In this document: positions 24,772-60,676 of the stretch, one piece after another
Layout: each line of letters opens with the position of its first letter
Numbering within the stretch: position 1 is the stretch's first letter
Assembly (NCBI RefSeq): GCF_029350975.1
Contig: NZ_JARKMR010000001.1
Coordinates: forward strand, 124,001 to 188,000
Direction of reading: 5' to 3'
DNA: 64,000 nucleotides
DNA from: Maribacter zhoushanensis
GTDB lineage: Bacteria > Bacteroidota > Bacteroidia > Flavobacteriales > Flavobacteriaceae
Position numbers and translations under genes: made by a program
The notes under the pieces: model-generated
Told to the model about the DNA's origin: nothing
The model's database searches: none
What the model saw: only the letters and a program-made list of their open reading frames with translations

Positions 24772-24838
24772 TTTCACAACAGAAATCTTCCTTCTAACAA
24801 CATAAAATTCCAGTTCGTCGTATTTAATAACATATTTG
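24772..24838 (+). promoter_or_regulatory. Direct-repeat element plus -7 box upstream of the Ig-like cargo/PorP operon
   Basis: TTTCACAACAGAAA starts at 24772 and a second half-site, TAACAACATAAA, has its ACAACA at 24797-24802, exactly 21 bp after the first. CATATTTG, one mismatch from TAnnTTTG, lies at 24831-24838, exactly 28 nt after the second half-site. The start codon is at 24916. Geometry and sequence match the elements at 32697 and 60676. Confidence 0.7.
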
Positions 24839-27169: not shown

Positions 27170-29380
27170 ATGCTAAAGAAAAGTGTTTTATATCTATTGT
27201 TATTTGTGTTGGCTATCATGAAGGTTAGCGGGCAAGAGGATAATCCGTTTGTATCATATGACGTTCCTTCCCAGAACCTTTTGAAGTACAACAGATTCTT
27301 AATCAACCCAACGTTTTCAACGGTTAGGGAAGACAAATCATACATCAACTTGTTACACCGAAACCAATCGGTACAATTTGATGATAACAATCAAAACTAT
27401 TTCTTAAGCTATAGTGGTCGTATAAACGATAAAACAGGTTTAGGCCTTAGTCTATATTCTCAAAGAGAAGGTATCTTAAGCAACTTTGGTGTGTTGGCAA
27501 ATTATGCCTACGGTATAAAACTGAACGACAAGAGTAACTTTACTTTTGGCGCAAATGTTTCTTACTACCAAAGTGGGTTTGATAACGGTAGAGCTTCTAC
27601 TGTAGAAGATGATCCTTTTTTAGCAGGACTGCAAGACCAGAATCTATTATCATTTCAGCCTGGTTTTAACCTTTCTTATGGTAAATTCGATGTTGGTGTG
27701 TTTGCTGAAAACCTTTTTGATTATAACTTAAAGACAAGCGAATCTGTAACCGAGTTTAAGGACAAAACATATTCTGGGCACTTACAATATACCCATCAGT
27801 TTGAAAAGCAAGACGGTATATTTGAACAAGGGCGGTTAATGCCTTTGGCAAGAGTTAGAAAAGTAGGTGAAGAAGATGTTACCCTTGGCGGTAGTTTAAT
27901 TCTTGACCTTCCAAAATTAGGATGGATCCAAGGTGGTTACGATAGTTTTTATGGTGCAGCTGCGGGTGTTGGTTTTAATCTTAACCAAAGAATCTCTTTA
28001 GGCTATACTATGGAAAAAGGGTTATCTAACAATTTTGATAATTTTGGAGTTACCCATGAAATCTCATTTGCGTATTCATTTACACCTAACCTTACAGAAG
28101 ATAGGGTAATGTTAGAGGATGATTACGAGGATGATCTAGTGCAAAATGATGATGAGCCAGAGAACATTGCAACGAATGAGGAAATTGAAGAGTTGAAAAT
28201 GAAGTTGGCAGAGAACGATGCCATTATTGAAGAGCTGATGTTTCGTCAAGATTCATTAGAAGCTATTCGCCAATCTGATTTAGAAAGACGTTTTGCAATG
28301 GTTATGCGTATGGTTCGTAATGAAACCAATGGAGAAAGACCTGACTTAGAAAATAAGGCCAAAGAGCTTTTCCTAGATGAGAACAGTAATACTGCTGTAG
28401 CTTCTAATTATAACCCAAGTAATTCTGGAGGCTCAAATACCAATAGTTATAATCCAAGCAACTCTGGTGAATTGGCAAGTGGTAAAGAAACAACTGGCGT
28501 AACCCAACAAGATAGGGTTGCGGTCATATCTAATGAAAGAGAAAACCCGGTTACCGAGAGACAAGAAGTTGCGGAGACCAACACAAATTATACTGATAAG
28601 AATAATTTTACTGAGCAGGTTCAGCCTAAAGACGCTGTGGTTGCAAACAGACCTAGAAATACTTCTGTACCTACTACGAATGCAGTTAGGGAAGTAGCCC
28701 AAGACGGAGTTAAAAGTCAAAGGTTTAAAGACCTACCAGATGTAACTGATGGTTACTATATAGTGGCTAATGTTTATAAAGGTGGTCAGTATATGAATAA
28801 TTTTATTGACGACTTAAACGCTAAGGGTATTAACGCTGATTATATCGATAACCCAAATACAGGCTTCAAGTATGTTTACCTTCAACGTTATGATACATTT
28901 GAAGATGCTGTTGCTGCACACGATTCTAATTTGAACGGTGCATATGATGGTGCTATGTGGATCATGAACGTGGATAATAGATATTCTAACGAAGCTTACG
29001 CTAGTAATGTCAATAAGATCAAAGAAAAGTCTTCTAAGTACGACTCCAATGTTCTAACGTCTAATGAGGTGGTAAGAGATAACGTTGAGTCTAGAGAAGC
29101 CGATTCTAAATCTTATGTTATTGAGGGTGCCGGATCTGGTTATTATTTAATAGCTAATGTATTTGCCAACCCTAGCAATGCTAAGAAGTTTGTTTCGCTT
29201 TTAAATTCATTCGGGTTAAATGCAAGCTACTTTATCAACCCAAAGAACAATTATAGATATGTGTATCTTAAGAAGCATGATTCTTGGACCAATGCCTTGA
29301 TTTCATATTACTCTAAGCTGAACGACGCTTATGATGATAAGATGTGGATTATGAGGGTCAATCAAGAACTACTCGTGTAG
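27170..29380 (+). CDS. PorP/SprF-family outer-membrane protein with two C-terminal SPOR-like domains
   Basis: Partner outer-membrane protein for the preceding type B cargo. The 736-residue protein is about twice the normal PorP/SprF length. Residues 1-21 are a signal peptide; about 22-310 form the PorP/SprF-like barrel (NRFLINPTFSTVRED replaces the usual NPAYAG motif). A coiled-coil segment follows (about 330-400), then a Ser/Asn-rich linker. Two SPOR-like modules come last, at about 525-600 (GYYIVANVYKGG to MWIMNVDN) and about 655-735 (GYYLIANVFANP to MWIMRVNQ). SPOR domains bind denuded peptidoglycan, so this protein may tie the barrel to the cell wall. The same module occurs in the OmpA-type protein at 58011-60524. 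Confidence 0.85.
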   Translation: MLKKSVLYLLLFVLAIMKVSGQEDNPFVSYDVPSQNLLKYNRFLINPTFSTVREDKSYINLLHRNQSVQFDDNNQNYFLSYSGRINDKTGLGLSLYSQREGILSNFGVLANYAYGIKLNDKSNFTFGANVSYYQSGFDNGRASTVEDDPFLAGLQDQNLLSFQPGFNLSYGKFDVGVFAENLFDYNLKTSESVTEFKDKTYSGHLQYTHQFEKQDGIFEQGRLMPLARVRKVGEEDVTLGGSLILDLPKLGWIQGGYDSFYGAAAGVGFNLNQRISLGYTMEKGLSNNFDNFGVTHEISFAYSFTPNLTEDRVMLEDDYEDDLVQNDDEPENIATNEEIEELKMKLAENDAIIEELMFRQDSLEAIRQSDLERRFAMVMRMVRNETNGERPDLENKAKELFLDENSNTAVASNYNPSNSGGSNTNSYNPSNSGELASGKETTGVTQQDRVAVISNERENPVTERQEVAETNTNYTDKNNFTEQVQPKDAVVANRPRNTSVPTTNAVREVAQDGVKSQRFKDLPDVTDGYYIVANVYKGGQYMNNFIDDLNAKGINADYIDNPNTGFKYVYLQRYDTFEDAVAAHDSNLNGAYDGAMWIMNVDNRYSNEAYASNVNKIKEKSSKYDSNVLTSNEVVRDNVESREADSKSYVIEGAGSGYYLIANVFANPSNAKKFVSLLNSFGLNASYFINPKNNYRYVYLKKHDSWTNALISYYSKLNDAYDDKMWIMRVNQELLV

Positions 29381-31867: not shown

Positions 31868-32835
31868 TTTAATTACCATAAAAGCATCACATTTTTAATT
31901 GTGAAATACAATTAAAACATGAATAGTTAATTGATTTTTCAATCAACTGTTGTTGTTTAAAATTTAATTAAAGGATAAGGTGTATTTACCTGTGCACTAG
32001 AAATCTTCTATGCATTAAAACCATGTTGGTTTAGTAAGTCTTTTCAGAAAGACTCAGATAATATGTAGAATTAATATAACAGATTTTAAATATAGATAAT
32101 TTTCTATTGATTCTAGTTTTATAGTAAACCAGGTTCTGTCTGTATTCTTCTTTTAATGGCTTTTGCAGGTGTTTTAAATGCAAAACAAAACAGAGAAAAC
32201 AATAGTGTTGTCTGTTCTTAAGAGAGCTTCATTTCACTTTAAAGAAACTAAATGTTTCTAGAAATAAGTTGTACCAGTTAAAATCAATCGCCTAAAGATT
32301 TCCAAATACTTTTCAGTAAGGCCTGTTTTAATGAAAGATGAAATTTATTTTGAAAATCAATTTAACTATTGCGAATTAAATTTGCACAAATCTAGTACCA
32401 GAGTTAAGTTTTACATGGTTGTTTTTTTACTTAAAATGACTTTAAAATCATCTTTTTATAACAGATTATTTGTAAAATTTCTTGATTAAAAAAGCAGGAA
32501 TTAGATCAAAAATAATAGGCAGATTTTAAGCAAACTCACTAAATGAGAGTGAATATTTACAGCATTATTCAAGAAATTTTTACAATTAAATATTTTCAAC
32601 TTACTACAAACTAAAAAAGAGTAAAGTAACGCTACTACGTCTCTTATCGTTGAAATACATACATTTTTCAAAATCACAAACCCATTCTATTAGCCGTTTC
32701 ACAACAGAAAACCTCGTTGCTACAACAATAAATTCATTAGCCAATCAGTATGGATAATATTTGTTATTGGAGAATTCCGCGTGGAACGATGCGAGATTGA
32801 TATCGAATGATAGGAAGGCTTCAAAAATTTACAAA
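31868..32835. other. Long upstream region of the giant adhesin gene
   Basis: Nearly 1 kb without a convincing gene. The right-hand 140 bases hold the direct-repeat element and a -7-like box (32697-32763). The rest is AT-rich, with no RNA gene, IS remnant or strong hairpin that I can recognise. A degenerate parS-like string AATTCCGCGTGGAACG is at 32773-32788 but differs at four positions from the two perfect sites near mnmG. Confidence 0.5.
32697..32763 (+). promoter_or_regulatory. Direct-repeat element plus -7 box upstream of the SprB-like gene
   Basis: TTTCACAACAGAAAACC starts at 32697; the second half-site CTACAACAATAAA has ACAACA at 32722-32727, exactly 21 bp after the first. AATATTTG at 32756-32763 is one mismatch from TAnnTTTG and lies exactly 28 nt after the second half-site. 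The start codon chosen at 32836 is 108 bp beyond the second half-site, similar to the other two operons. Confidence 0.7.
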
Positions 32836-35800
32836 ATGACCAAACTGACTCAATTTTTAGATTTTACCAAACACACTTCTCTTATGGGAAAACAGTACTC
32901 AAAATATTTATTTTTCATTTTATTCTTGGCACTAGGTTTACAAACAGCGGTTGCTCAGGTTAAAAATGACTTCGACGTTCGTTACGAAGCGGATATTAGA
33001 GGAGAACTTACGTTCATTGCAAATAATATTGTAAACAGGTATGAGCCCTCTACAACCCGTAGGCAATGGGTTTGGAGAAATGGTAGATGGAGATTAGAGT
33101 GGGTTACTACACCAGAGGTATCTGCAAATGTACCTCTTAATGCCACAGGTAATGCTTCAAATTATAATGATAATTATGACATGCGATACATTGATATCGA
33201 TAATGATGATACTACATTTAGTTCTAGTAGTGCGAATTTAGAGATACCAGATGTTGATTGTTCATTGGTACGTTATGCAGGTTTATATTGGTCTGCAGTA
33301 TATGTAAATCCTGATAGAAGTAATATTGATGATATTAAGTTTAGAACGCCAGGTGGCGCATATCAAGATATTACGGCAGATGAGATAATTTTTGATGGTG
33401 ACGGCGATGTTGATTTTGGTTACTACAGCCCTTATGCAGCGTATAAAGATGTAACTTCTATAGTAGCTGGTTTAGGAAACCCAAATGGAGATTACTTTGT
33501 AGCCAATGTAAGAGCTAGTACAGGAAATAACATTTCAGGTGGTATTTCCGGTGGATGGAAAATGGTTATTGTATATGAAAACCCCAATTTACCCGGAGAT
33601 AAATTTATTACCACTTTTGATGGTTATGCGGGTGTTAAATCAGGAGAAAGTATTGATATTCCGGTAAACGGATTTACAACTTTACCAGCACCTTTTCCTG
33701 TGTATGCAAATATGGGAGTTGGCGCTTTAGAAGGTGATAATAGAATTGGTGGTGACGCTTTACAAATAAATGCAAACGGTTCTTTTACTACATTATCTAA
33801 TGGTCAAAATCCAGCAAACAATTTTTTTAATTCAAGTATAACGCAGTTTGATACTCAGTATACAAATAGAAACCCAAATAGTATAAACACACTGGGTTGG
33901 GATGTTGATCTTTTTGAAATACCCAATGGTGGTGCCAGTAATACGATTATACCAAATGGAGCTACCAGTGCTATTTTAAGAGCCAGTTCTTCTCAAGATA
34001 AATATGATATTTTCTTTACTTCTTTTGATGTTGATATTATTGCTCCAAATATTGTTTTAGAAAAAAGGGTACAGACTCCTGGTGGTGTTGACATAACGGG
34101 GCAAGGTGTAAATTTAGGACAAACTCTAGATTATGTATTGACTTTTGAAAATATTGGTAATGACGATGGTGTAAACTATACCATAAGAGATGTGTTGCCT
34201 GTAAACGTTTCTCCACCAGATGGCAGAAGCTTTTTCAATGATACAGATTTTTCTTTTCCTGCACCGATTTGTACAGGAACCCCAAGAACTTGTTATGAGA
34301 TAACATACACTTATGATCCTTCAAGTAGAGAAATAATATTTAATGTTCCAGATGTATTTGTTGAAGATGAAGATGGAGAATATTCCATTATTTTTAGAGT
34401 ACAGGTAGCCGAAAACTGTTTCGATTTTATTGACGCTTGTTCTGATTTAATTGAAAATCTTGCATATAGTTCATATAGAGGTGAGAATAATTCTGCGCAA
34501 GTGACCGATGACCCTAGTGTAACTGACTTTAATTCATGTGGATTTGTTATACCTGGAGCAACCAACTTTCTTTTAGATGATTTGTCTGATTGTAATTTTG
34601 AGAGAACCATAGAGCTTTGTGGTACAAGTGCTATTTTAAATGCAGGTGACGGATTTGATTCCTACATATGGTATCGAGATACTAATAGTAATGGCGAAAT
34701 AGATGCTTCTGATATTGAAATTAATGATGGTGATCCAGATAATGATCCTAGTACACAAGTTGTAACTCTTGTTGGTCAGTATATAGTTGATAAAATTGTT
34801 GCAGATCCATGTAAAGGGTTCAAAGAAATTATTACTGTAGAACCATTTGGTTCTGGGAATTTACCAAATCCCGTTATAGAGTATTTTAATGAAGTAAACG
34901 GTGATACCGACCCAAACAATGATATACCAGGTGAAATAGTTTTCTGTTCTGACGGCACCGAGCTTCCTAAGATTTTCCTATGTGGTGTTAATGATTCTCA
35001 ACCATTAGCGGTTAATATTGTTGATGCCCAAAGTGTTACTTGGGAACTTTTAGATGAAGGTAGTTGTGGAGTTAATGCCGAGGCGGGAGAGGATTGTGCC
35101 AATAGAGCACTTACGTGTACATGGACAGAAGTAGGTACTGGGAGTAATTATTTGTTGAATGCGCCAGGTGAATACAGGCTCTCTGTCATTTACCAAAATG
35201 GGTGTACTAGCCGTTTTTATTTTAAAGGCTTTCAGAATAATTTAGATATTGAGTTTAATAATAGGGATATTGTTTGTGATACTGATGGTAATATTACTAT
35301 AACAAACCTTGGAGCAGGTTATGGTTATCAATTGGTAGACAATGATAGTAATAATGTTATAGTACCATTTAGTGCAAACAATGGTCCAAGTTTTGATTTT
35401 GGTTCTGGTGAAAATGGTTCTTATAGAGTAGAGGTTACTCAACTTGATTTAAATGGCGACCCTATACAAGATGCATGTATATTTACTACACCGGTAATAG
35501 GTATTAGAGAAAGAGATATAACTTATAGTGTAAGTGCAACTCCAGAAACGTGTTTCAATTTAGGTACTATTTCGCTTCAGATTACAAACGCTGATTCTAC
35601 TTATGATTTTGAAATCAGAAGAAATGACGGTGCAGATAGTGGGTTGGGTACTTTAATAGATAGTGAAGATGGTAAAGGTGATAATAACCACATTTTTAGA
35701 GATGTAAGTGCTGGAGATTATATTGCCTATATTTCTACCGCTGATGGTTGTGAATATAGTCGAGAAATAACTGTTTTAGATGAAAATGATTTAGAACTTA

Positions 35801-38800
35801 CCGCAAGTGTAACACAACATATTACTTGTGAAGACGGTACCATATTTATGGATGCCGATGGTGGTAACCCAGATTACTCTTACGTGATTTGGAGCTATGT
35901 TGATGAAGGCGGAACAACTGTTACTTCTTATTCAGATTTTGCTGATATTCCTGCAACCAACTTTCAAACAGAAACTACTTTTAATGTTTCTGGTGCTGGT
36001 GATTATGTCTTTTTAGTTTTAGATAGAACGGGTTGTTATGTAGAATCTAATACCGTTACAATTGAATACCATTCTACTGCAGATTTTGACCCAACAACGG
36101 TTACAGATGTACTTTGTTTCGGAGAAACAACAGGTAGAATTCAATTTAACGTTACTAACACTAATGGGTACACATTAGATTTCGCATTATTTGATGACAC
36201 AGATCAACCATTAGCAAATAACAGTACGGGTAGTTTTCCAAACTTGGCAGCAGGTGAATATAGCGTTGAAATTACCCAAACAAGGGGTACGGCAACTTGT
36301 ATTTCTGAAGAAACATTTACCATTAATGCACCAACAGCTGCAATTAGTGGCGATGCTGTTTTAATTCAAGATTATACCTGTTTACAAGAAGGTATTATCG
36401 AGGCTCAAAATGTAGCAGGTGGTACTGCACCTTATTCATACAGTATTGACGGAATCAATTTTGTTCCAGATACAACGGCAAACGCAAACCGTTTTGAAAA
36501 CCTTACAGATGGTACTTATACCATTACAATAAGAGATGCGAACGATTGTACTTTTGTTACAAATCAAATAGTAATTGACAGACCAAACCCTCCAACAGAT
36601 TTAACTATTGTAGAGTCTCAAATTACATGTCCTACAGGAACATCAAACTTAACGGTAAACGCAATTAATGGTGCTGCACCATATGTATATACCATTATTG
36701 CACCTTCTGCACTTAACCCTACGAGCACTTCAGGAAATGATGCTGTTTTTGAAGGTTTGGCGCCTGATACATATACGGTAAGAGTTACCGATGCCGATGG
36801 TTGTTTCTATGAAGAAAATTATACGATAAATGCTATTAATCCTATATCTGTAAACGGACAAACTACACAACCTATAAGTTGTTTTGGCGCTGCAGACGGG
36901 ATTATTCGTTTTAATGTAAATTTCCAAGCAGGTCAAAACTTTACGTATATAATTACTGGTCCTGCAGGGGTTGAAAGAACTGGAGGTACCGAAGCTTTAA
37001 TTGACAATATCAATAATTTAGCTGCTGGTATTTATACAATAGAAATTGTAGATACGGATACCAATTGTGTATATACAGGTTCTCATGAATTAGAAGGTCC
37101 GGCTTCGGCATTGACTATTTCTAGTTTAACTGAAATACAACCTAGTTGTACTTCTGCTGGTAGTGTTAGTGTTCTTGCAACAGGCGGGTGGGGAAGTTAT
37201 GTATATGAACTGAGCAACCCAGATGCTTCTGTATTCGGAACTAATAGTACAGGTTCTTTTTCAGGTCTTAGTCAATCTGGAACATATAACGGTACTATCA
37301 CAGATGCAAACAACTGTAGTATACCATTTACTTTTGATCTTAATCCTGCAACTGCACCAGTTTTAGTAATTACGCCAAATCAAGATTGTTTTGATGATGC
37401 TGTATTATTGACTCTTACGGCCAGCATTTCTTCTGGTGGTGACGGTTCTTTTGAATATAGCTTAAACGGTGGTGCTTTTAGTAGTACCAATATATTCTCT
37501 GGACTTGCAGCTGGTACATATACTATTGATGTTAGAGACGGAAATAATTGTACAGATACAGAAACTATAATAATTGACCCGGCATTGACCGTAAACGCAA
37601 CAGCAAATGATATTACTTCTTGTGGTACAGATGCTGATATTACTATTGTTGGTGCTGGTGGAGATGGTAATTATGTGTACGCTGTAGTAGCTGATGGTAT
37701 TACACCAACCGCTGGTGATTTTGACTCAAGTAATACAGTAACGGTGACCGGTACAGGTGACTATGACGTGTATGTAAGAGATAATAACGGTAATGCTGAT
37801 TTCTGTGAAACGGTATTTGATATTAATATAGACCAAGATGCTCCTGTAGCTGCAACAGAAACTGTTGTAGATGTTACTTGTTTTGGCGGAAATAACGGTA
37901 GTATTTCTTTAGCACCAAGTGGTGGTGAGGCACCTTATACATTTAGTTTCAATGGCGGTACTTTCGGTACGGAAAGTTCTTTTAATAACCTTACCGCTGG
38001 CACGTATGATGTTAGGGTAAGAGATGCGAATAGTTGTGAAGCGATATTATCACTATCTATAAACGAATTACCTGAAATTATAGCTGAAAGCGCACAGACA
38101 GAAGATTATACCTGTAATCAATTGGCAGAAATTACAGTTGGCGGGGTAACACCTACAACTGGTGGTTCCGGTTCTTATCAATATAGCTTAAATGGTGGTT
38201 CTTGGACTGCAGCTACTGCTGGCGGAACTGTGTATACAGATTTAACAGATGGTACATTTACGGTTCAAGTTAGAGATGCCAATAATATTGCATGTGTAAT
38301 AAGTCTTCCTAATATCGTAATAGCGCCATTACCAACAGCCCCTACTTTGACTAGTAGTGTTGCCTATAGTTGTGATGGAACAGGGATTATTACCATACTT
38401 CCAAACGATGCATCATATACCTACAGTATTGATGGTAATACTCCTCAGATAGGTGACAATGTATTTAACAACGTAGCAGTAGGTCAACATACAATTACCG
38501 TAGATTATGGTAGTGATTGTACAACAGATATTGTTGTTGATGTTCAAGATGGTAACGCTATTGAAGCGTCTTTACTTTCTTCTAAAGATTTAGATTGTAA
38601 TGCAGATAATTCTGGTTCAATAACTTTTGAAGTTGATAATTATGGCGCAAGCGGATTTGAGTATAGCTTAGATAATTTTGCCAGTATTTTAGGAAGTACT
38701 ACGGTATCTCCACAAACCATATCTGGACTTGCAGCTGGTAGTTATAGAGTGTATGTTAGAGAGGCGGGAAGTACTTTGCCGGGTTGTGTAACATTTTTTG

Positions 38801-41800
38801 ATGAAACTATTGACGAACCAACATTGGTTATTACTAATGCAGATCTTACGCAAGATTTTACATGTAATAATGGCGGTGCAGAAATTACCGCTAGTGCTAC
38901 AGGTGGTACTCCAGGATATGAATATCAATTAGAAGAAGATATACTTGGCATTGTAACCGCATACCAAACAGATGCTGTTTTTAACGGTTTGCCTGCCGGT
39001 ACATATTATGTTCGTGCTAGAGATACAAATGGTTGTTCAGATGTAAGTGATACACCAATTGTAGTTACAGCACCAGAAATACCAGTTTTTACTTTACAGG
39101 AAACTACTTGTTATAGTGGCAGTAATGATGCAACTATTACGGTAAATGTTACTGCGGGTAATGGTGATTACCAATTTAGAATCAATGGTGGTTCTTTTGT
39201 AACTCCAACACCAGTAGATGCAACTTCTTATACGTTTACGGGACTTTCAAATGGTACATATACTGTTGAAGTTACCGATGCTTTTGGTTGTGATGCTCCA
39301 GCGCAAACCGTTACCATAGAACAACAAGTTACAGTTAGTGCAAGCGCCAGTACAATAACAGCTTGTGATACTGATAGTGAAATTAATATTACCGCTGCAG
39401 GTGGTGATGGTAATTATGTTTATGCGGTTGTTGCCGATGGGGTTACTCCAACAGCAGGAGACTATTCAGCTACCAACCCGGTTACCATATCTGGTGCCGG
39501 AGATTATGATGTTTATGTTCTTGATAATAATGGAGGCGCAGATGCGTGTCCTGCAATGTATGATATTAATATAGACCAAGATGCTCCCGTAGCCGCAACA
39601 CCAACTGTTGTTGATGTTACTTGTTTTGGTGGTAACAACGGTAGTGTTTCTATAGCTGCCAGTGGAGGTGAAGCACCATATACGTATAGTATAGATGGTG
39701 GTGCTTTTGGTACAGAAAGTTCTTTTAATAATCTTACCGCGGGTACTTATGATGTTCGCGTAAGAGATACAAACGATTGTGAGCTTATCGTATCTGTTCC
39801 TGTTTCTGAATTACCGGAAATAGTAGCTGAAAGTGCACAAACAGAGGATTATACCTGTAATCAATTGGCAGAAATTACAGTTGGCGGGGTAACACCTACA
39901 ACTGGTGGTTCCGGTTCTTATCAATATAGCTTAAATGGTGGTTCTTGGACTGCAGCTACTGCTGGCGGAACTGTGTATACAGATTTAACAGATGGTACAT
40001 TTACGGTTCAGGTTAGAGATGCCAATAATATTGCATGTGTAATAAGTCTTCCCAATATCGTAATAGCGCCATTACCAACAGCACCTACTTTGACTAGTAG
40101 TGTTGCTTACAGTTGTGATGGTACAGGGATTGTTACCATACTTCCAAATGATGCTTCATATACCTACAGTATTGATGGTAATACTCCTCAAATAGGTGAT
40201 AATGTATTTAACAACGTAGCAGTAGGTCAACATACAATTACCGTAAATTATGGTAGTGATTGTACAACAGATATTGTTGTTGATGTTCAAGATGGAAATG
40301 CCTTTGAAGCTGCAATTATATCTTACGAAGATTTAGATTGTAATGCAGATGGTTCTGGTACCATAACTTTTGAAGTTGAGAATTTTGGACCAGGTGGTTA
40401 TGAGTATAGCTATGATAGTGCTTTTGCAACTATTGAAGGTAGCGATACTGCTGCAACACATCAAATAACTGGTTTATCTCAAGGTACGTATACAATCTAT
40501 GTTAGAGATGTTGGTAACCCTATTGCCGGTTGTACTGAAATATTGACACAAATAATAAATGAGCCTGCGGTTTTAACCGTTTCTAATACGGCAACACAAC
40601 CTACATGTATTGATGATGGTGCCGTGAATGTTACGGTAACTGGTGGTACTGCTGCATATTCTTATGTAATTCAATTACCAGATGCTTCATTAACGCCAGC
40701 ACAAAACACAGGAGTATTTACTGGTCTTGATCAATTAGGTTTACATACCATTACGGTTACCGATGCAAACGGATGTACGGATACGGATACTTTTACATTA
40801 ACAGCACCTGTTGCTCCTGTTGCAAGTATTTTACCGAGTTCAGATGTGTGTTTTGATTCTTCTGTGACTGGAGCAGCAACTATTGAAGTTGGCGCAACTG
40901 GCGGTTTGGCTCCATACACCTATAGAATGGGTGCGGGTACTTTTACTACTTCTAATATTTTCTCAAGTCTTACTCCTGGTAATTACACTTTTGAAATTAG
41001 AGATGTAAATGGATGTACAGACACGGTATCATTTGATATTGAAACTCAATTAACGGCTAATCTTGCATTAACGAAAGACTTAGATTGTTCTATATCACCA
41101 GATGCTACTATGAATTTAGTGACCAATGGTGGGTATGCTCCTTACACGTATGAATTAGAAGTAAACGGCGGTGGCTTTGCTGCTTTTGCCGGAACATTCC
41201 CATATACAACTTCAACTGTTGGTACGTATAGATTTAGAGTGACAGATGATCAAGGTTGTACTGCTGTTTCTAATGTAGTTACGGTTACGGCAACGGTAAA
41301 TCCTGTTGCTAGCGAAACTGTTACCAATCCTACTTGTTTTGGTGATACCAATGGTATTGTTGAAATCAACGTTGATCCTAATTTTGGGTCTTCACCATAT
41401 CAAATTAGTTTTGATGGTAGTGCTTTTACAAGCCAACGTGTTTATACAGGTTTAGCCGCTGGTACTTATAACTATATTGTTAGGGATTCTAAAGAGTGTA
41501 CGTATAACGGTAGTGTTACTGTTGTTGACCCTGTATTATTTGATGCCAATGTTGTAGCTACAGACGTTAGTTGTGGTCCTTCTGGAGATGTACCAGGTAA
41601 TATCGAAATAACTATTACAAGTGGTGGCGAGCCAAACTTTACATATACGCTTTACGACAACTTAAATAATTTAGCAGTAACCACAAGTCCAAACCCAGTG
41701 GTGAATACAACGGCAACAGTAGTTAATTTTGGCGGTTTGGCTTTTGGAGATTACTATGTTCGTGTATTGGATGCCAATGGCTGTGAGTATTACGAGAATC

Positions 41801-44800
41801 CGGTTAGAGTATTATCTAGTCCGTATTTATCGGTTGATCCTGTTTTATTACCTGTAAGTTGTATTACGGGTGGAACAGCTGAGCTTACTGCAAGCGGTGG
41901 TTCCGGTAATTATGATTTTACAATTTATGGTGCAGGTACAACACCGGACGCTGAGGCGCCTGGAGCTACTGCTGATGAAGAGGTAGCAACTTACAACGGA
42001 CTAAACCCTGGAGCGAGTTATGTTTTTCAAGTTATTGATACTGACACCGGATGTTCTAGTTTCGTTGAGGTAGATGTCCCTAATTTATCAACTATTGATG
42101 TTGTGCCAACACCGACGGTAACAGATGTTGCTTGTTTTGGTGATACCAATGGATCTATTGCTTTTCAATTTGAAGGTTATGATAGTTCAGTGACTACCAT
42201 TAACTATGAATTAAGAGAAAGTATAAGCAACACACCTTTAGGTGGTTCATATTCAGGTAGTGTAACAGGTCCAAACGGTCCTGGTCCAACGGCTACGGAA
42301 ACAATATCTAACATTCCTCCAGGAGATTATGTTTTATTCTTCCAAGAGGCAGCTACACCTGAGTGTACAAATACTTTTGAGTTTAGAATATTAGAACCGA
42401 ACCCTGTTACCTTGACTCTGGCAGACCAAAATAATGGGTACTGTTCAGAAGATGCTAATGTAACGGTTATTGCAGGTGGTGGTAACGGTTCTTATACTTA
42501 TGCATATGTTGAAAATGGAGTTACTCCGATTGCAACAGATTATGAAACTAACAATTACAAAGAATTAGATCCTTCTGTAAATACAGAATGGGATATTTAT
42601 GTAATGGACGGAAATGGTTGTTCAACAACACTACCGTTAGATGTTACAATTGCAGATGACCCAACCCCAGTAATTTCTGGATTGGTAATCAACCAATGTA
42701 CTGCAGATGAAGGTGACTTTATTATAGAAATTACGTTAGACGGAGAAGGTTCTCAACCATATACACTTAGTATAAATAGTGGTTCATACCAGTCTTCTAC
42801 GTTAACTACTGCTGGTTCAACGCATCAGTTTACTGATCTTAGTTCTGGTAATTACACAGTTCAGGTTCGTGATTTTAACGGATGTGGAAATGTTGAAAAT
42901 ATTGAAATTTTTGCTCCTATTTCTATTTCTACCGAGATTGTTGCACAACCATCATGTGCTGAAGGAGATGGTGAAATTTCAATAACTGGTTTTGGCGGAT
43001 CTACAAACTACGAGTATGAATTATTTGAAGGTGGCGTAAGTGTAAACGGAGCTCCGCAGACATTAGCCAGCTTTACAGGTTTAGATTCTGGTACGTATAC
43101 TGCATTTGTTTATGATACTACACTAAGTGGATGTAGTGCTCAAACAATTATAACACTTGAAGCAGCTACACCGGTATTATTTACTACGGTGATGACAGAT
43201 GTTACTTGTTTTGGTGATTCTGATGGTACCATCGTTGCAACGTTAGATGCATCAATGGATAATCCTGTTTATGAATATCAATTATATATTAGAACAGCCC
43301 CATCAACATTAACTCCGGTTGGTACGCCACAAACAACAGGTACATTTACAGGTTTACCTGCAGAAGATTATGTAGTGGGTGTTACTTCAGGTCGTGGTTG
43401 TGAATTGGAAGTTGATAGTCCGGTAGGTACTCCGTTACAAATTACAAACGTGAATGCAGATGTAGTAGAGTTCGGTTGTACTGTTGGCAATAATCCTAAC
43501 AACGCTACAATTACTGTAGACGAGGCTGCCATTACCGGCGGTAGCGGTACCTATGTTACCTATGAGTTTATAGATAGTAGTTCAGCTATAGTTCAGTCTG
43601 GTACATTAAATGTATTAACGGTTACAGATAGAACAGGGGAGACCTATACTATCAATGTATATGACGATAAAGGATGTTCTGGTAGCACAACGGCTACGGT
43701 ATTGCCTTATGATGAACTTACAAGTGCAACTGCCGCAGTGACTACAACGGTTACTTGTGCGCCAGGTAGTGATGGTGTAATTACGGTTACGGCAACTTCT
43801 ACCGCTAGTGATGATACAAAATATGAATACAGTATCGATAACGGTTCAACTTATGTTCCTACCAATGTGTTTGGAGGATTATCCGCTGGAAACTACAATT
43901 TCTTAGTAAGACATACGGATACGGGTTGTATACTAACGGCTTCAGCTATTATTGAAGAGCCAAATACGTTTACCATCGATGTCGTTAAGACAAGTGACGT
44001 AATCTGTTTTGGAACGGATACCGGTGAAGTTACCTTTGAATTGGTCGATGCTACGTATAACACAGGATTCAGTTGGGAAATTTTCCGTACCGACAATACT
44101 TCTGTCCTTAGTGGAACAGAATTGGCAAACGGTCCAACACCGATTATCAACTTGGGTGTTGGTGAATACTATGTTTCCATTTCACAAACAAATAACCCGT
44201 TCTGTACCAATGTTGAATTTTTTAATATAGCAGGACCAGATGCGGATATTACGGGAGATACTGTAGTAACAGCTATTACATGTGTACCTGGAAATGATGG
44301 TTCAATTACAATAACTGACGTAGTCGGTGGTTGGGGCGGTTATACTTATTTTGTTGACACTGTCGCTCCAACATTACCAACCGATTTCGTAGCAGATGCT
44401 TCTTTCACAGGATTAGGAGCTGGTACATACCAAGCTTGGGCTCGTGATGCAGAAGGTTGTGAAAGATTAATTCAAGATAACATTGTTCTTGATGTTCCAG
44501 ATCTTATTGATGCCGATTTGCTTGTTACTCAAGAGAACTGCACAAACTTACAGGGCGAAGTAACCGTAAGCAACGTAATTGGCGGACAAGGAAGTAACTA
44601 TACCTATCAATTAGTAATGGACGGTTCTAATTTCCGAGCACCACAAAACACGCTAGTTTTTACAGGTCTAGGTGCTGGTGAATATGAAGTAATTGTTTCA
44701 GATCAATGGGGTTGTACATTTACAACTGATCCAGTAGAATTATATGAGCAATTAAGCGCTACTACTTCGGTAGATAAAGCTATTGATTGTACAAGTATAC

Positions 44801-47800
44801 CAGGTGGTACAATTACTATCAACGTAACTGGTGGTTCTACAAACCTTGAGTTTGTAATGACACCTCCAACTGGTGCTGCAGTAACTCAGCTGAATGATCC
44901 AACATTTACAGGATTAACCGTTGACGGTACTTATAGTTTCTTAGTTAGAGATTTAGACACTTCAAATCCTGTTTGTGAACTAACGGTAACGCAAGAGTTA
45001 GCTCCTGCAATTCAGCCGGTATTTACAGATTCTCATATAGATATTACATGTTTTGGATCTAATGATGGTTCAATTACATTGACGCAAGTTGAAAACGGAG
45101 TTAATCCGTTAACATTTACCATATCTCCTGTAGCAGGAACATTTAATGCTAGTAACAATACTTTTGAAGGTCTACCTCCAAATACATACGTAGTAACAGC
45201 AACAGGAACCAATGGTTGTAGTTCAGTATCAGGTAACATTGTAATTGATGAACCTGCATTAATTTCTAACATCAATACTTCGGTACTAGAATTCGGTTGT
45301 ACTGTGGGCAATAATCCTAACAACGCTACAATTACTGTAGACCAGGCTGCCATTACCGGTGGTAGCGGTACCTATGTTACCTATGAGTTTATAGATAGTA
45401 GTTCAGCTATAGTTCAGTCTGGTACATCAAATGTATTAACGGTTACAGATAGAACAGGGGAGACCTATACTATCAATGTATATGACGATAAAGGATGTTC
45501 TGGTAGCACAACGGCTACGGTATTGCCTTATGATGAACTTACAAGTGCAACTGCCGCAGTGACTACAACGGTTACTTGTGCGCCAGGTAGTGATGGTGTA
45601 ATTACGGTTACGGCAACTTCTACCGCTAGTGATGATACAAAATATGAATACAGTATCGATAACGGTTCAACTTATGTTCCTACCAATGTGTTTGGAGGAT
45701 TATCCGCTGGAAACTACAATTTCTTAGTAAGACATACGGATACGGGTTGTATACTAACGGCTTCAGCTATTATTGAAGAGCCAAATACGTTTACCATCGA
45801 TGTCGTTAAGACAAGTGACGTAATCTGTTTTGGAACGGATACCGGTGAAGTTACCTTTGAATTGGTCGATGCTACGTATAACACAGGATTCAGTTGGGAA
45901 ATTTTCCGTACCGACAATACTTCTGTCCTTAGTGGAACAGAATTGGCAAACGGTCCAACACCGATTATCAACTTGGGTGTTGGTGAATACTATGTTTCCA
46001 TTTCACAAACAAATAACCCGTTCTGTACCAATGTTGAATTTTTTAATATAGCAGGACCAGATGCGGATATTACGGGAGATACTGTAGTAACAGCTATTAC
46101 ATGTGTACCTGGAAATGATGGTTCAATTACAATAACTGACGTAGTCGGTGGTTGGGGCGGTTATACTTATTTTGTTGACACTGTCGCTCCAACATTACCA
46201 ACCGATTTCGTAGCAGATGCTTCTTTCACAGGATTAGGAGCTGGTACATACCAAGCTTGGGCTCGTGATGCAGAAGGTTGTGAAAGATTAATTCAAGATA
46301 ATATTGTACTTGATGTTCCAGACCCGATAGCGGCAATACTAGAAGTAAATATAGAGAACTGCACAAACTTACAAGGAGAAATCGAAGTAAGTATGCCTAC
46401 TGGCGGACAAGGAAGTAACTATACATACCAATTAAGATTAAACGGTACTGATTTCCGTGCACCACAGAATACTAGAGTATTTGCAGGCTTAGGTGCTGGT
46501 AGTTATGACGTAGAGATTATTGACCAATGGGATTGTCCTTTTACAACTAATGTGGTGGTGCTTTATGAGCAAATGGATGTTTCTACGACAGTAGATAAGT
46601 CTATTGATTGTTCATCAATACCAGGAGGTGAAATCACAGTTAACGTTACTGGTGGTTCAACAAACCTTGAGTTTATAATGACACCTCCAACAGGTCCAGC
46701 TGTAACACAGGCGAATAATCCAATCTTTACAGGTTTAGTTGCTGAGGGTACATATAGTTTCTTAGTAAGAGATTTAGATACCTCAAACCCTGTTTGTGAA
46801 AGAACGGTAACTCAGACATTAGATGCACCGGTAGACCCAGTACTATTAGATGCGACTATAGTAAACGTAAGTTGTTTTGGTGGTACAGATGGTAGTATTA
46901 GAGCAAACATTGACCCAGCTACAAATTCAAATCCTGAGTATCAATATGAAATATATGATATTGCAGATTTGGTTACTCCGATTGCAATACAGACAAATCC
47001 GTTATTCAATGGTTTACCAGAAGGTGAATATCAAGTAAGAGTTATTTCAAGTAGAGGTTGTGAAGACATCAAAAATGAAACTATCACAGAACCACTAGAA
47101 TTAACAGTTAGTGCAGTGGCGACAGAATTTAACTGTTCAGCAGATAATAGTGTTAACACCGCAACGATAACGGCAACTGCTGGCGCAGGTACAGGTACCG
47201 CACCATACTTATACAGTATAGATAATATCATCTTCCAATCACAAAATACATTCAATGTATCAGATACAGGAAGTGCACAAACTATTGATGTATATGTAAA
47301 AGATGCTAAAGGATGTATCACGTTCGATACGGTTACAATTCAACCTATAAACACGTTCACAGCTTCTATTGCTCAAGATGTAGCTATTAACTGTAGTGTT
47401 GATGAAACAATAACAATCACTGTTGCCGATAATGGTTTGGCACATAACTACGGTTATGAGTTGTTACCAATTGGTAATGCAACAGGTACATTGGTAAGCT
47501 CTACGGCTACTTCTGCAACATATGATTTAAATACTGTTGGTAGCTATGTATTTAGAGTTACAGACTTAGATACGGGTTGTTATGTAAACACAGAAAGTTA
47601 TACGGTTGCTCCTTTCGATTTTATTACCGCAACCGCAACACCGGTATCAGAAGTTACTTGTTTTGGTGATGCAAACGGTAGCTTAGAAATTGATATTGAT
47701 GGCTATACAGGTAATTATACATATGAGGTATTCAATGCCGCAGGTACATCTATTATTCCGGCAACAGCTTCAGATACGAGTGTTAATCCAAGAACGATAA

Positions 47801-50174: not shown

Positions 50175-51125
50175 ATGATGATGCGGAACAGTCTATTGAC
50201 ACTGGTATTATTTATAAGCGTATTCTCCCTAAGAGGGCAGGAGCTTACTATACCTCAATTATCTCAATATCTAGCCGATAACCCCTTTGTAATGTCCCCA
50301 ACTTACGCAGGTATCGGTGACCATGTAAAAATAAGGCTTAACGGTCTTACACAGTGGGTAGGTATTAAAGATGCACCAGATACACAATCTCTTGCTGCAG
50401 ATATGCGTATAGGAGAAAAATCTGGTATTGGTACATTACTGTATAATGATAGCAATGGACAAACAAAGCAACAAGGAGCTAGGTTTTCTTTTGCTCATCA
50501 TCTTACGTTAGATCGTTATGACGATGAGTTTTTATCGTTCGGTATCTCATATAACTTTAACCAGTTTAGAATTGATATTCAGAAATTTGATTCTGCAGAT
50601 CAGGCTGTTACTGACGATAGAGCAACTACTAATCATAACTTTGATATTGGGGCACTTTATAGATATGATAAATTTTATTTTAGTGTAAACGCTTCTAACA
50701 TTCTAGATAAGGATTTAAGCAATTTTAATGCTTTATACGAGCCTAATAGGTTAAGAAACTATTATGTGTATACCGGTTATAGATATATGAAGAAAAGAAC
50801 TAGTAAGATGGAAATCGAACCATCTGTGTTGTTTCAATTATTTGAGAGTGATGGGCGTTCTGTTACAGATTTAAACTTGAAATTCAGATTTTATGATTTT
50901 GAAGATTATTTCTATGCAGGTGTCAACTACCGTTTCTTGAACGATCAAATTGGTAACCCGCTTTATATAGCTCCTATTGCCGGTTTAAAGAAAAGTAATT
51001 TTTACTTCGGATATTCTTATCAAGTAATTCTAAACGAGCTTATTGGGTATAGTTCTGGTACACACGTAATCACCCTTGGGGTAGATTTATTTCAGGGTAT
51101 CAGTAATTGTCGTTGTACGTATTAA
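50175..51125 (+). CDS. PorP/SprF-family T9SS outer-membrane protein (SprF-type partner)
   Basis: Outer-membrane barrel-like protein of 316 residues that, by analogy with SprF of Flavobacterium johnsoniae, is needed for surface delivery of the adjacent SprB-type adhesin. It has a signal peptide (LTLVLFISVFSLRGQ), the family opening LTIPQLSQYLADNPFVMSPT followed by YAGIGDHVKIRLNGLTQWVG (the NPxxxSPTYAG and R..QW.G motifs), GIGTLLYNDSNGQTKQQGAR and a C-terminal strand DLFQGISNCRCTY. Length is standard. It begins 14 bases after the giant gene, so translation is probably coupled in one operon. Any of the first three Met codons could be the start. Confidence 0.93.
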   Translation: MMMRNSLLTLVLFISVFSLRGQELTIPQLSQYLADNPFVMSPTYAGIGDHVKIRLNGLTQWVGIKDAPDTQSLAADMRIGEKSGIGTLLYNDSNGQTKQQGARFSFAHHLTLDRYDDEFLSFGISYNFNQFRIDIQKFDSADQAVTDDRATTNHNFDIGALYRYDKFYFSVNASNILDKDLSNFNALYEPNRLRNYYVYTGYRYMKKRTSKMEIEPSVLFQLFESDGRSVTDLNLKFRFYDFEDYFYAGVNYRFLNDQIGNPLYIAPIAGLKKSNFYFGYSYQVILNELIGYSSGTHVITLGVDLFQGISNCRCTY

Positions 51126-58010: not shown

Positions 58011-60524
58011 TTACATGTCTACGATAATGAACTCTGATCTACGGTTAAGGTAGTGTTGTTCTTCTGTACAGCGAATAGTTCCGTCACAATCGTTGATTAA
58101 TCGTTCTTCCCCATAACCTATAGCACTTTGAATTCTGCTTGGATCTATACCTTGAGATATGATATAGTCTCTAGTAGATTTAGCACGTTTATCAGATAGG
58201 TATTTGTTGTAAACGGCCGCACCCCTTGAATCTGTATGCGATTCTATTTTTATGACCATATTAGGCGAATCGGTCATTACTTCAACTAGTTTATTAAGTT
58301 CTACAGCAGCATCGTCACGTATGTATGATTTATCAAAGTCAAAGTGAATCATCTCTGTCTTAAGTTTCTTGATACCATTTTCAACAGCGATCATATCATT
58401 TAGTTTTCTCATTGAGATATCTACATTGACCGTATCATTGTCTTTAGTTGCGGCTTCTCTGGTATCATCAAAGTATGAACCTTTGGTGGTTTTTAATACA
58501 TATCTGGTATCGGCATCTAAATCTTCAAAAATGAAATTACCATTTTCATCGGTTTCCATTTCTTTAAGTTTAATGTTGTTTTCATCAAGCAACTCCACTA
58601 ATGCATTAGGCATTAAATCACCAGTTATCAATTCTGTTACAACACCTGCAATAGCATTTATACTAGTTGGTATTTCTTCAACTTCCAATGTTTTAAATGA
58701 ATAGATATCATCATCGCCCTTACCGCCGTCACGGTTAGATGCAAAGTATCCTTTCTGAGTTTCTTCATTAACAATAAATGAAAAGTCATCTTTGCTACTA
58801 TTAACCGGCTTACCTACATTACGAACTTCTAAAAAGCCAGCTTCATCATCAAAGGCAACCTCAAATACATCTAAACCACCTAAGCCTACATGACCGTCAG
58901 ATGAGAAGTATAGTTTTTTGTCATTTATAAAAGGAAACATTTCTTTATGCTCCGTGTTAATTTCTGGACCAAGATTTCTTGGAGAAGAAAAAGAACCATC
59001 TTCAAGAACATCTACTACGAAAATATCTGTATCACCAATACTACCTGGCATATCAGAAACAAAATATAATTGTTTTCCATCAGGGCTTAATGCCGGGTGA
59101 CCTGTAGAGTAGTTGTCACTGTTGAAAGAGACCTCTTCTGCCTCTAACCATTCATCGTTAACTTTTTTTGAACGATAAATTTTAAGGTGGTTAATTCCGT
59201 TCTTATCTCTCTTTAGTTTCTTACCATAATTGTTTCTGGTAAAATACATAGTCTCATTATCTGGAGAGAATGCTACAGAAGCTTCATGATATTTAGTATT
59301 GATTTTTTTAGAGAACTTGATAGCATCTTTAAAATCTTGAGACTCTTCATTTACCTTGGCAACGAATAAATCTAAATAAGGCTGATTGTTCCATTTATAC
59401 TTTCTGGTATTAAATATCGATGAATCTTTCGCAGATGCATAAACCATTTCTTCACCACCATAATACATAGGTGAAAACTCAGAGTACTTAGAATTGATAT
59501 TTAGGTTATTGATATCAAACCTTTCTTCCATTCTTAATAGACCGTCTAGAACTATTTCGTTTTGTTCAATGTCTTGCTCAATTTCTTCACCCGCTAATTT
59601 CTTATTGTACAGCTTTAAAAGACGCTTAGATCTTTTATAGTTACCAATACCTTTTAGTGAGTGTGCATATTTAAATAAGTAGTCAGAACTCATGTCAGAC
59701 TCATATTTGGTATATAATATGTTATACCACTTATAAGCGTTTTCCATATCTGTATTAAAGTAATGGGCATCACCAGCTTTCTTTAAAACATCATATGTAT
59801 AAGCTTTTTCTCCTTTAGATAAGGCTTGCTCATAAATTTTTGCAGCTTCTGCATACCACATTTTATCAAAATACTCATCTGCTCTTTTAATGAGTTTAGA
59901 TTTAAACGCAGGATCGTTATCTTTTGATGAAGTAAGCATTTCATAAGAAACCTCTTCTACAGGTATAGTTTCTGTTTCTAATTCAGTTACTGGTGTTGTC
60001 TGTAATGTTGAGGTAGCTTCTATTTCTGCTACTGTTGGTAATTCTGAAACAGCTTCGGTTTCATTATACACATTATTGTTGATCATTTTAAGAACCCATA
60101 CCTCATCATCGTAACGATTGTCAAATTCTGTAGAACAATCATTTAAAGCTTCTTCCCAAGAAGTGTAGTGGTTTAAATACAAATAGTATAATAGGTTTTG
60201 AGGATTCTGAAAGTACCCAGCTTCAAACCCTTTTCTATTTAATTTTTTAATTTGAGAATTTAGATTTTTATCTTTTGAAAATGTACCTGCTATAACGTAG
60301 TATCCATTTTCGGTATTTTCTATATCATGAAAAGCTCTGTATGGAATAGACAGTGCTTCAGCAGCTCTTTGAAAATCTTTTTTGTCGTTTTCTTCAGCTA
60401 CGGATACTATTGAGTCCTCGATGTTATTTGATACATCAGACTCTAGTTCATCTTGAAAACCTTGAGCTTGGGCAAAAACGATAAAGACCAGAAAAAATAA
60501 ATTTAATACACTTCTCATAGACAT
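58011..60524 (-). CDS. PorE-like OmpA-family protein with SPOR-like, TPR and beta-propeller domains
   Basis: Predicted outer-membrane/periplasmic protein of the gliding/T9SS machinery (837 residues). Order: signal peptide (SVLNLFFLVFIVFAQAQG), SPOR-like module (about 68-148, NGYYVIAGTFSKDKNLNSQI to DDEVWVLKMIN), TPR-like helices (about 205-310), PD40/WD40-like beta-propeller repeats (about 340-600: ALSPDGKQLYFVSD, FINDKKLYFSSDG), a carboxypeptidase-regulatory-like beta domain (about 625-700) and an OmpA peptidoglycan-binding domain (about 720-837) with IESHTDSRGAAVYNKYLSDK and RAKSTRDYI. TPR, propeller, CarboxypepD_reg and OmpA are the PorE arrangement; the SPOR-like module is extra. It is preceded by the same direct-repeat promoter element as two other T9SS units. 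Confidence 0.88.
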   Translation of the reverse strand: MSMRSVLNLFFLVFIVFAQAQGFQDELESDVSNNIEDSIVSVAEENDKKDFQRAAEALSIPYRAFHDIENTENGYYVIAGTFSKDKNLNSQIKKLNRKGFEAGYFQNPQNLLYYLYLNHYTSWEEALNDCSTEFDNRYDDEVWVLKMINNNVYNETEAVSELPTVAEIEATSTLQTTPVTELETETIPVEEVSYEMLTSSKDNDPAFKSKLIKRADEYFDKMWYAEAAKIYEQALSKGEKAYTYDVLKKAGDAHYFNTDMENAYKWYNILYTKYESDMSSDYLFKYAHSLKGIGNYKRSKRLLKLYNKKLAGEEIEQDIEQNEIVLDGLLRMEERFDINNLNINSKYSEFSPMYYGGEEMVYASAKDSSIFNTRKYKWNNQPYLDLFVAKVNEESQDFKDAIKFSKKINTKYHEASVAFSPDNETMYFTRNNYGKKLKRDKNGINHLKIYRSKKVNDEWLEAEEVSFNSDNYSTGHPALSPDGKQLYFVSDMPGSIGDTDIFVVDVLEDGSFSSPRNLGPEINTEHKEMFPFINDKKLYFSSDGHVGLGGLDVFEVAFDDEAGFLEVRNVGKPVNSSKDDFSFIVNEETQKGYFASNRDGGKGDDDIYSFKTLEVEEIPTSINAIAGVVTELITGDLMPNALVELLDENNIKLKEMETDENGNFIFEDLDADTRYVLKTTKGSYFDDTREAATKDNDTVNVDISMRKLNDMIAVENGIKKLKTEMIHFDFDKSYIRDDAAVELNKLVEVMTDSPNMVIKIESHTDSRGAAVYNKYLSDKRAKSTRDYIISQGIDPSRIQSAIGYGEERLINDCDGTIRCTEEQHYLNRRSEFIIVDM

Positions 60525-60609: not shown

Positions 60610-60676
60610 CGAAATTAGTAGTAAAGCGATATTCTGAATATTAATTGTTGTGAAAGAGGGTTTTTATGTCGTGAAA
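60610..60676 (-). promoter_or_regulatory. Direct-repeat element plus -7 box upstream of the OmpA-type gene
   Basis: Read on the minus strand, TTTCACGACATAAAA starts at 60676 and a second half-site TTTCACAACAATTAA has ACAACA at 60651-60646, exactly 21 bp after the first. TAATTTCG (60617-60610) is one mismatch from TAnnTTTG and lies exactly 28 nt after the second half-site. The start codon at 60524 is 121 bp beyond the second half-site. Confidence 0.7.

Follow-up and report, generated by a model that had tools for sequence, protein, structure and literature searches.

A repeated element precedes gliding and T9SS loci

The stretch of DNA analysed here, called the window, is 64,000 nt long (G000:C10:124001-188000) and belongs to a genome of 4.26 Mb. 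It holds genes for predicted gliding and type IX secretion system (T9SS) proteins, and putative operators composed of two half-sites. These features are as follows (window positions; R1 is the sequence model described below).

91-121, + strand: operator 4, half-sites ATTCACAACA and GTTCACAACA; R1 match (locus L053, E 1.7e-8), half-sites kept in five aligned relatives
150-157, + strand: TTAATTAG, 28 nt beyond the second half-site of operator 4
653-2845, + strand: RNase R (Pfam RNB, OB_RNB, S1), first long ORF past operator 4, ~530 nt away
24772-24802, + strand: operator 1, half-sites TTTCACAACA (24772-24781) and TCTAACAACA (24793-24802); R1 match (locus L063, E 1e-5)
24831-24838, + strand: -7-like box CATATTTG of operator 1; identical box in relatives L281 and L282
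24910-27162, + strand (ATG 24910): Ig-like/CHU_C T9SS cargo protein (Pfam CHU_C, Ig_7), probable target of operator 1
27170-29380, + strand: PorP_SprF and SPOR protein (Pfam), probably in one transcription unit with the Ig-like/CHU_C cargo gene
32697-32727, + strand: operator 2, half-sites TTTCACAACA (32697-32706) and TGCTACAACA (32718-32727); R1 match (locus L059, E 1.3e-6)
32756-32763, + strand: -7-like box AATATTTG of operator 2; identical box in seven relatives
32836-50160, + strand: SprB-like giant protein (Pfam: SprB repeats, CHU_C, both within the last 999 aa), probable target of operator 2
50175-51125, + strand: PorP_SprF family protein (Pfam; SprF-like), probably in one unit with the SprB-like giant
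58011-60524, - strand (ATG 60524): OmpA/PD40/SPOR protein (Pfam), PorE- or CHU_0125-like, probable target of operator 3
60610-60617, - strand: -7-like box TAATTTCG of operator 3 (60617-60610); similar box in relatives
60646-60676, - strand: operator 3, half-sites TTTCACGACA (60676-60667) and TTTCACAACA (60655-60646); R1 match (locus L060, E 2e-6)

A preliminary description of this DNA had reported two-half-site elements ahead of three T9SS/gliding units, and direct reading of the sequence places operators 1, 2 and 3 exactly there. As it had also stated, their 10-nt half-sites recur with a period of 21 bp, and 28 nt separate the last half-site from a box with one mismatch to TAnnTTTG (at 24831, 32756 and 60617). 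Start codons lie 108, 109 and 122 nt past the second half-site; the earlier estimate was about 108-121 bp. The gene names given to the three units agree with the Pfam domains (CHU_C; PorP_SprF and SPOR; SprB repeats and CHU_C; PorP_SprF; OmpA/PD40/SPOR). The NCBIfam models for PorE and CHU_0125 both match the OmpA/PD40/SPOR protein below cut-off. For the SprB-like giant there is an in-frame ATG at 32836; the mechanical ORF start, TTG 32761, falls inside the box at 32756-32763 and is unlikely to be used.

The same description had seen no equivalent before housekeeping genes. This claim fails, because operator 4 lies at 91-121, ~530 nt upstream of RNase R. The intervening DNA (122-652) is conserved in five relatives and has no obvious long ORF; it may represent an extended regulatory leader or one more small RNA.

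The element exceeds chance in the genome, the genus and the family

Spacing alone gives a first indication of signal. Within the window, a 21-bp period yields four pairs matching at 16 or more of 20 positions, compared to two at most for other spacings. Over the whole genome, the pattern TTTCACAACA-N11-TTTCACAACA with up to three mismatches finds 19 matches, versus 4 for the reversed pattern. We built model R1 from an alignment (A1) of 18 sites, namely the 19 pattern matches minus L022 and L030 (poor boxes) plus L007; L012 was excluded, as its box is not at 28. R1 finds 77 matches in the genome at E values up to 10 and 24 at E<0.01, the latter being the 18 training sites and six from outside the training set. 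The genome-wide scan called for in the preliminary description included a check of coding sequence, and none of the 24 R1 sites overlaps an ORF of at least 90 aa on either strand. A shorter pattern, ACRACA-N15-ACRACA, was rejected, with 16 matches versus 16 for its reversed control; 12 of the 16 are intergenic, and position alone is informative. Unlike this short pattern, the longer half-sites separate signal from control.

Every one of 36 genomes of the genus contains 3-10 matches at up to two mismatches, compared to 0-1 for the reversed pattern, and 68 of 249 Flavobacteriaceae genomes have a match at that threshold. In 15 sites of relatives, covering the three gliding/T9SS loci of the window, the half-sites and boxes are largely kept and the spacers change. 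The genes downstream, matched by eye, are the same gliding/T9SS genes.

The position of the box was compared with background as well. At offset 28, 8 of 19 sites of the genome (background mean per offset, 0.24) and 41 of 70 from other genera (1.05) have a TAnnTTTG-like sequence matching at 5/6 or more; the other 11 of the 19 have no 5/6 box at exactly 28. For the top sites of the genus (n = 29, mostly from the LRR gene), the commonest offset is 48 (18/29), with 28 seen in 4/29. The LRR-protein promoter (L017/L061 and relatives) has the best half-sites and a box at offset 48; the DNA between them includes a weak stretch resembling a half-site. L029/L075 carries a third half-site a further 21-bp step away, with the box 28 nt past it, and L031/L065 likewise has a third one. 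Collectively, these sequence comparisons argue that the shared element is real, a predicted operator–promoter unit, and that it marks a clade-wide gene set in marine flavobacteria.

A LytTR two-component regulator accompanies the element

The preliminary description had guessed at a LytTR-type regulator encoded outside the window. We find a LytTR response regulator of 254 aa (PF00072 and PF04397 above cut-off) at G000:C13:111606-112367, hence not in the window, and the guess is borne out both by its co-occurrence with the element and by a site next to its own gene. That site (L052) lies between the regulator gene and the gene for a TPR/HisKA_2 histidine kinase. Among the matches listed, the closest orthologues are those of Maribacter. 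With orthologues defined by at least 59% identity, a line chosen after the gap to the next matches (45%) was visible, the regulator is present in 51 of the 249 Flavobacteriaceae genomes. All 51 have the element, compared to 17 of the 198 genomes without the regulator; two or more elements are found in 49 of the 51 and in one of the 198. The 249 genomes are not independent, and Fisher values for the co-occurrence overstate the case; regulator and element could share their distribution merely as markers of one clade. Diverged regulators (59-79% identity) are still accompanied by the element.

Linkage was assessed at the best 80 of 283 relatives' loci. Within the 1.5 kb on the 3' side of the regulator gene, 71/80 have a site at up to five mismatches and 64/80 at up to three; for 76 distant control stretches, the corresponding numbers are 3 and 0. 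Anywhere in the locus stretch, a pair at up to three mismatches is present in 70/80. Nine of these 80 loci lack an adjacent site: L167, two truncated contigs (one from Arenibacter) and six Arenibacter loci of full length. Seven Arenibacter loci (L174, L176, L179, L181, L186, L189 and L192, of which L174 is the truncated contig) keep the regulator and have no operator just 3', and in six of these seven a weak pair lies ~1.6 kb upstream of the regulator gene. Within our genome, one of 17 LytTR genes has a site (up to four mismatches) in its 3-kb locus, and no such pair was found in the 3-kb loci of the other 16.

A search of solved structures with the regulator gave 56 matches, covering the receiver domain. 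LytTR sites consist of repeats of 9-11 nt with spacers of 11-13 nt, according to the available text of PMC4847170. The element conforms to this rule, with 10-nt repeats and an 11-nt spacer, and the candidate cognate regulator has the receiver and LytTR domains that an operator of this type requires. If transcription starts ~12 nt after the box begins, the element would be centred at about -56; the AgrA repeats are centred near -60, as given in the accessible part of PMC4227749. Judging from these comparisons, the gene set marked by the element is probably switched on by one two-component regulator.

Putative targets of the element are mixed

Besides the four window loci, sites in the genome precede genes for an IgGFc-binding-domain protein (L064), an ECF sigma factor (L058), an LRR protein (L061), a subtilase (L068), the TPR/HisKA_2 kinase (L052), and lipoproteins and small proteins (L055, L056, L062, L066, L067, L072), including proteins of 30-120 aa. 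At least six further sites precede small-RNA-like genes (L054, L057, L065, L070, L071, L075), which show element, box and terminator and no long ORF. Weaker sites (E 0.05-0.06) lie ahead of a TPR protein (L077) and a DUF285/PKD protein (L078). We then surveyed 40 stretches from five genomes of other genera, a subset of the sites in those genomes. The ECF sigma factor, the LRR protein, the kinase, small RNAs and secreted proteins recur there, as do a 35-aa protein, a ~123-aa protein and a 56-aa membrane protein, and further cargo proteins follow the element in other genera. The 35-aa family ends in KLFML and stands after the operator in several genera (L062 1609-1713; L226, L233, L247). The ECF sigma factor site (TTTCACATCA...TTTGACAACA; L058 and relatives) is found nearly unchanged in many genomes of the genus, suggesting a cascade of sigma factors.

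The preliminary interpretation holds in part. The same gliding/T9SS genes follow the element at the 15 sites of relatives, but a gliding regulon as such is not supported: about 19 of the 24 sites in the genome, by our reading of the site list, precede other things. Enrichment before CHU_C, PorP, SprF or OmpA genes had been proposed as a check; among the 24 sites and the 40 stretches from five other genomes the targets are mixed, with no dominance of gliding/T9SS genes.

Predicted small RNA A

One family of small-RNA-like genes, small RNA A (sRNA A), is ~90 nt long and consists of a variable 5' end, the core TTTTCATTTTCATATAGTGTTCTCGT and a terminator. The 29-nt core, at up to three mismatches, is found in 45 of the 249 genomes (42 genera); the reversed control finds none. 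All 45 are among the 51 regulator genomes, compared to 0 of the 198 others, and the six regulator genomes that lack sRNA A are those with the most diverged regulators. Genomes carry one to five copies. Among 59 distinct copies in the loci retrieved, the core hardly varies, and each copy has a half-site pair (1-6 mismatches) upstream. At up to six mismatches, such a pair occurs in 14 of 400 random 130-nt stretches of the window. In 24 of the best 80 of 283 regulator loci, a copy of sRNA A lies 171-199 nt 3' of the regulator gene.

Searching our genome for the complement of the core at up to three mismatches returned only the four sRNA A genes themselves, and hence no target with long complementarity was found. 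An Rfam search of 18 loci up to E 1 gave 20 matches, none at the gathering score, and no resemblance of sRNA A to RNAIII. The simplest reading, as for FopS (discussed below), is that sRNA A probably base-pairs with mRNAs.

Predicted small RNA B and the CCCAAA leader module

The second family, sRNA B, comprises 27 copies of 127-200 nt. Copies mostly carry two to three modules, each a stem with a CCCAAA loop followed by RACC (CCCAA occurs on average 2.3 times per copy), and most end in CCTACTT shortly ahead of the terminator. Genes for sRNA B occur in tandem groups of two or three (L225, L234, L241; G000:C12:5007-5509 in our genome), each gene with its own operator-like pair.

Of 26 copies, 24 gave a segment and 20 were used in alignment A2. 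For these 20 second hairpins, the stem covariation score exceeds all 500 shuffles and all slid controls. It likewise exceeds the shuffles on 27 distinct model-aligned rows, an alignment that leans to its model. Of five pair measures, two (pairs and pair types) rise only modestly above the shuffles, being reached by 52 and 13 of 500 shuffles for the 20 rows and by 30 and 8 for the 27. RNAalifold returned no structure for the whole sRNA B alignment, in which stem lengths differ, and did return one for the single-hairpin alignment. A strict sRNA B pattern matches 14 of the 249 genomes, all with the regulator; its absence elsewhere says little, since it misses diverged copies in our own genome.

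The motif CCCAAATC lies within 150 nt downstream of 7 of the 24 sites in the genome (0.06 expected) and upstream of none; two of the seven are sRNA B genes. In other genera, it is downstream of 14 of 45 sites (sRNA B genes included) and upstream of one. Genome-wide there are 148 occurrences versus 85 of the reversed motif, so it is not rare by itself, and the signal is its position. A model of the module (R2) finds 11 matches in the genome; only the top one has a low E value, 0.0017, and the others follow at 0.055, 0.94, and 1.2 and above. The best four, all regulon members, comprise a pair of sRNA B genes, one additional copy next to a member of that pair, and the leader of L067. Match nine (L339), also a leader, has a weak element upstream, and the other six have none. 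Applied to the regulon loci alone, the model matches leader sequence directly ahead of the start codons of L067 (E 0.024) and L056 (E 0.21); in L066 and L068 a hairpin of this type can be traced by eye. At L335, L336 and L338 the motif precedes a start codon without any element, suggesting that an RNA-level function would extend beyond the regulon.

sRNA B thus combines multiple stem-loops, one short loop motif common to them, and occurrence of that motif near mRNA start codons, as expected of a decoy-type RNA. The loop is CCCAAA, not the GGA of CsrB/RsmZ, and those families are absent from the Rfam matches up to E 1 at the 18 loci. Because repeated hairpins displaying the motif are common to sRNA B and mRNA leaders, we read sRNA B as a decoy, which probably competes with the leader module for an RNA-binding protein. 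sRNA A and sRNA B are probably two undescribed families, and from their upstream sequences the regulon of the element probably includes both.

A proposed circuit and its alternatives

We consider it very likely that, as a whole, these data reflect a LytTR two-component operator with a mixed regulon and with sRNA A and sRNA B among its outputs. In this model, where binding, transcription and RNA function are what we infer from sequence, the phosphorylated regulator would bind the two half-sites as a dimer along the same side of the helix, with the centre ~56 bp ahead of the transcription start. It would activate promoters that carry a -7 box and lack an evident -33 box, and would co-regulate gliding/T9SS surface proteins, its own kinase (thereby feeding back on it), the ECF sigma factor, small proteins and both small-RNA families. 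sRNA A would act by base-pairing with mRNAs, the sRNA B hairpins would compete with leader modules for an RNA-binding protein, and the cascade would work like AgrA-RNAIII, CiaR-csRNA or GacA-Rsm.

A different, unlinked activator of the same phylogenetic spread could read the element instead, the LytTR pair being a mere target. AraC-type proteins, for example, can also bind half-sites with a 21-bp period. Since the LytTR genomes constitute a single clade, other genes share their spread, and a site adjoining the regulator gene is also expected of a mere target. We regard this as unlikely, since half-site length and spacer match the LytTR rule in the available text of PMC4847170, the single LytTR gene of 17 that has a site is the one with the matching spread, and regulators diverged to 59-79% identity still come with the element. 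It is extremely improbable that the element serves gliding/T9SS genes proper, with its other sites being chance or secondary: the three window units and their orthologues, and more cargo proteins in other genera, fit such a regulon, but the majority of sites stand ahead of other genes, and among the targets conservation is highest for small RNAs, the kinase, the ECF sigma factor and the LRR protein.

The RNA layer invites other readings too. Both small RNAs are predicted from sequence, and small ORFs are possible in some copies (e.g. ATGAAAACTAAAAAGTAA in L057), so they might not be regulators but leaders left by attenuation or degradation, or transcripts of short ORFs, sharing the promoter by chance. 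This seems quite improbable given that over 42 genera the sRNA A core differs at no more than 3 of its 29 letters and travels as one piece with terminator and operator, and that the sRNA B stems covary. Rather doubtful, and a more serious contender, is the view that the leader copies of CCCAAATC are a feature of the downstream region, at the level of DNA or of the start of translation, and not a protein-binding RNA module. The motif does lie shortly before the start codon in several leaders, of which just those of L056 and L067 match the hairpin model, weakly (E 0.21 and 0.024); on the other side, there are two to three copies within sRNA B, with covarying stems, and the distance from the box varies.

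A more specific version of the LytTR model can be put forward tentatively, as a possibility we do not quite favour. In this clade of Flavobacteriaceae, unrelated parts may form a global circuit of the Gac/Rsm kind: the LytTR regulator would activate the multi-copy sRNA B decoys, whose CCCAAA hairpins would titrate an RNA-binding protein off start-codon-proximal modules in the same regulon and in other genes, and sRNA A, born beside the regulator gene, would base-pair. We know of no CsrA in this phylum, and our literature search found no Gac/Rsm- or CsrA-like decoy system of this kind in it.

Control of the T9SS by PorX/PorY-SigP is marked by a PorX-type regulator or the SigP sigma factor; in the regulon described here, an ECF sigma factor (L058) is a putative target. 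Little is known of what turns on gliding and T9SS surface proteins in marine flavobacteria, and our literature search showed no published regulon like this one. There is now one named regulator, with one kinase and one operator, to test. Regulatory RNAs have received little study in the Flavobacteriaceae, and the two small-RNA families and the CCCAAA hairpin module make a post-transcriptional layer directly testable.

Comparison with known systems

In the literature searched on LytTR, gliding/T9SS, flavobacterial regulons and small RNAs, with most subscription papers outside the search, the element, sRNA A and sRNA B are unnamed; this agrees with the preliminary description, which knew of no published element of this form for gliding genes. 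As far as its available text goes, PMC9723704 has the TAnnTTTG box and small RNAs of its own and no LytTR, and the accessible parts of PMC5395568 and PMC7440613 only count or list LytTR proteins.

The closest parallel to sRNA A within the phylum is FopS/GibS, with RbpB, of Bacteroides thetaiotaomicron, likewise a multi-copy Bacteroidota family with a single-stranded 5' stretch and a terminator (PMC11697453, PMC7366714, available text). There, FopS promoters are described as canonical and their regulator as unknown, and FopS acts by base-pairing (PMC11697453, same portion). FopS is not among the Rfam matches up to E 1 at the 18 loci, and the Rfam copy used may not contain it. Nothing like sRNA B is described with FopS, GibS or RbpB in the available text of PMC11697453 and PMC7366714.

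For sRNA B, the nearest likeness is to GacS/GacA-RsmY/Z and CsrB/CsrA, as these systems are generally understood. In both cases a two-component system drives (here, would drive) multi-copy RNAs with repeated hairpins, whose loop motif is shared with mRNA leaders. The loops here are CCCAAA instead of GGA, and the regulator is of LytTR type.

CiaR is an OmpR-type regulator. In Streptococcus pneumoniae, this single response regulator drives protein genes and several small RNAs, the csRNAs, as we propose for the LytTR regulator; five of its 15 promoters drive small RNAs, according to the title of a paper cited in PMC11697453. The RNAs themselves are unrelated, the sole csRNA match (Rfam, L057) being below gathering and on the opposite strand from sRNA B.

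In Staphylococcus aureus, AgrA activates RNAIII, a regulatory RNA beside its own genes, and a LytTR regulator would do the same here with sRNA A. sRNA A differs in being ~90 nt long, in its one to five copies per genome, and in showing no likeness to RNAIII in Rfam. The operators of AgrA, YpdB and VirR, in the available text of PMC4227749 and PMC4847170, share with the element the LytTR domain of the regulator, two direct repeats of ~10 nt, an 11-nt spacer, a centre near -56 to -60, and adjacency to the regulators' own genes or promoters. Compared to these, the element has the half-site TTTCACAACA, a Bacteroidota -7 box and a TPR/HisKA_2 kinase, and it occurs at ~24 sites in one genome, some with three half-sites.
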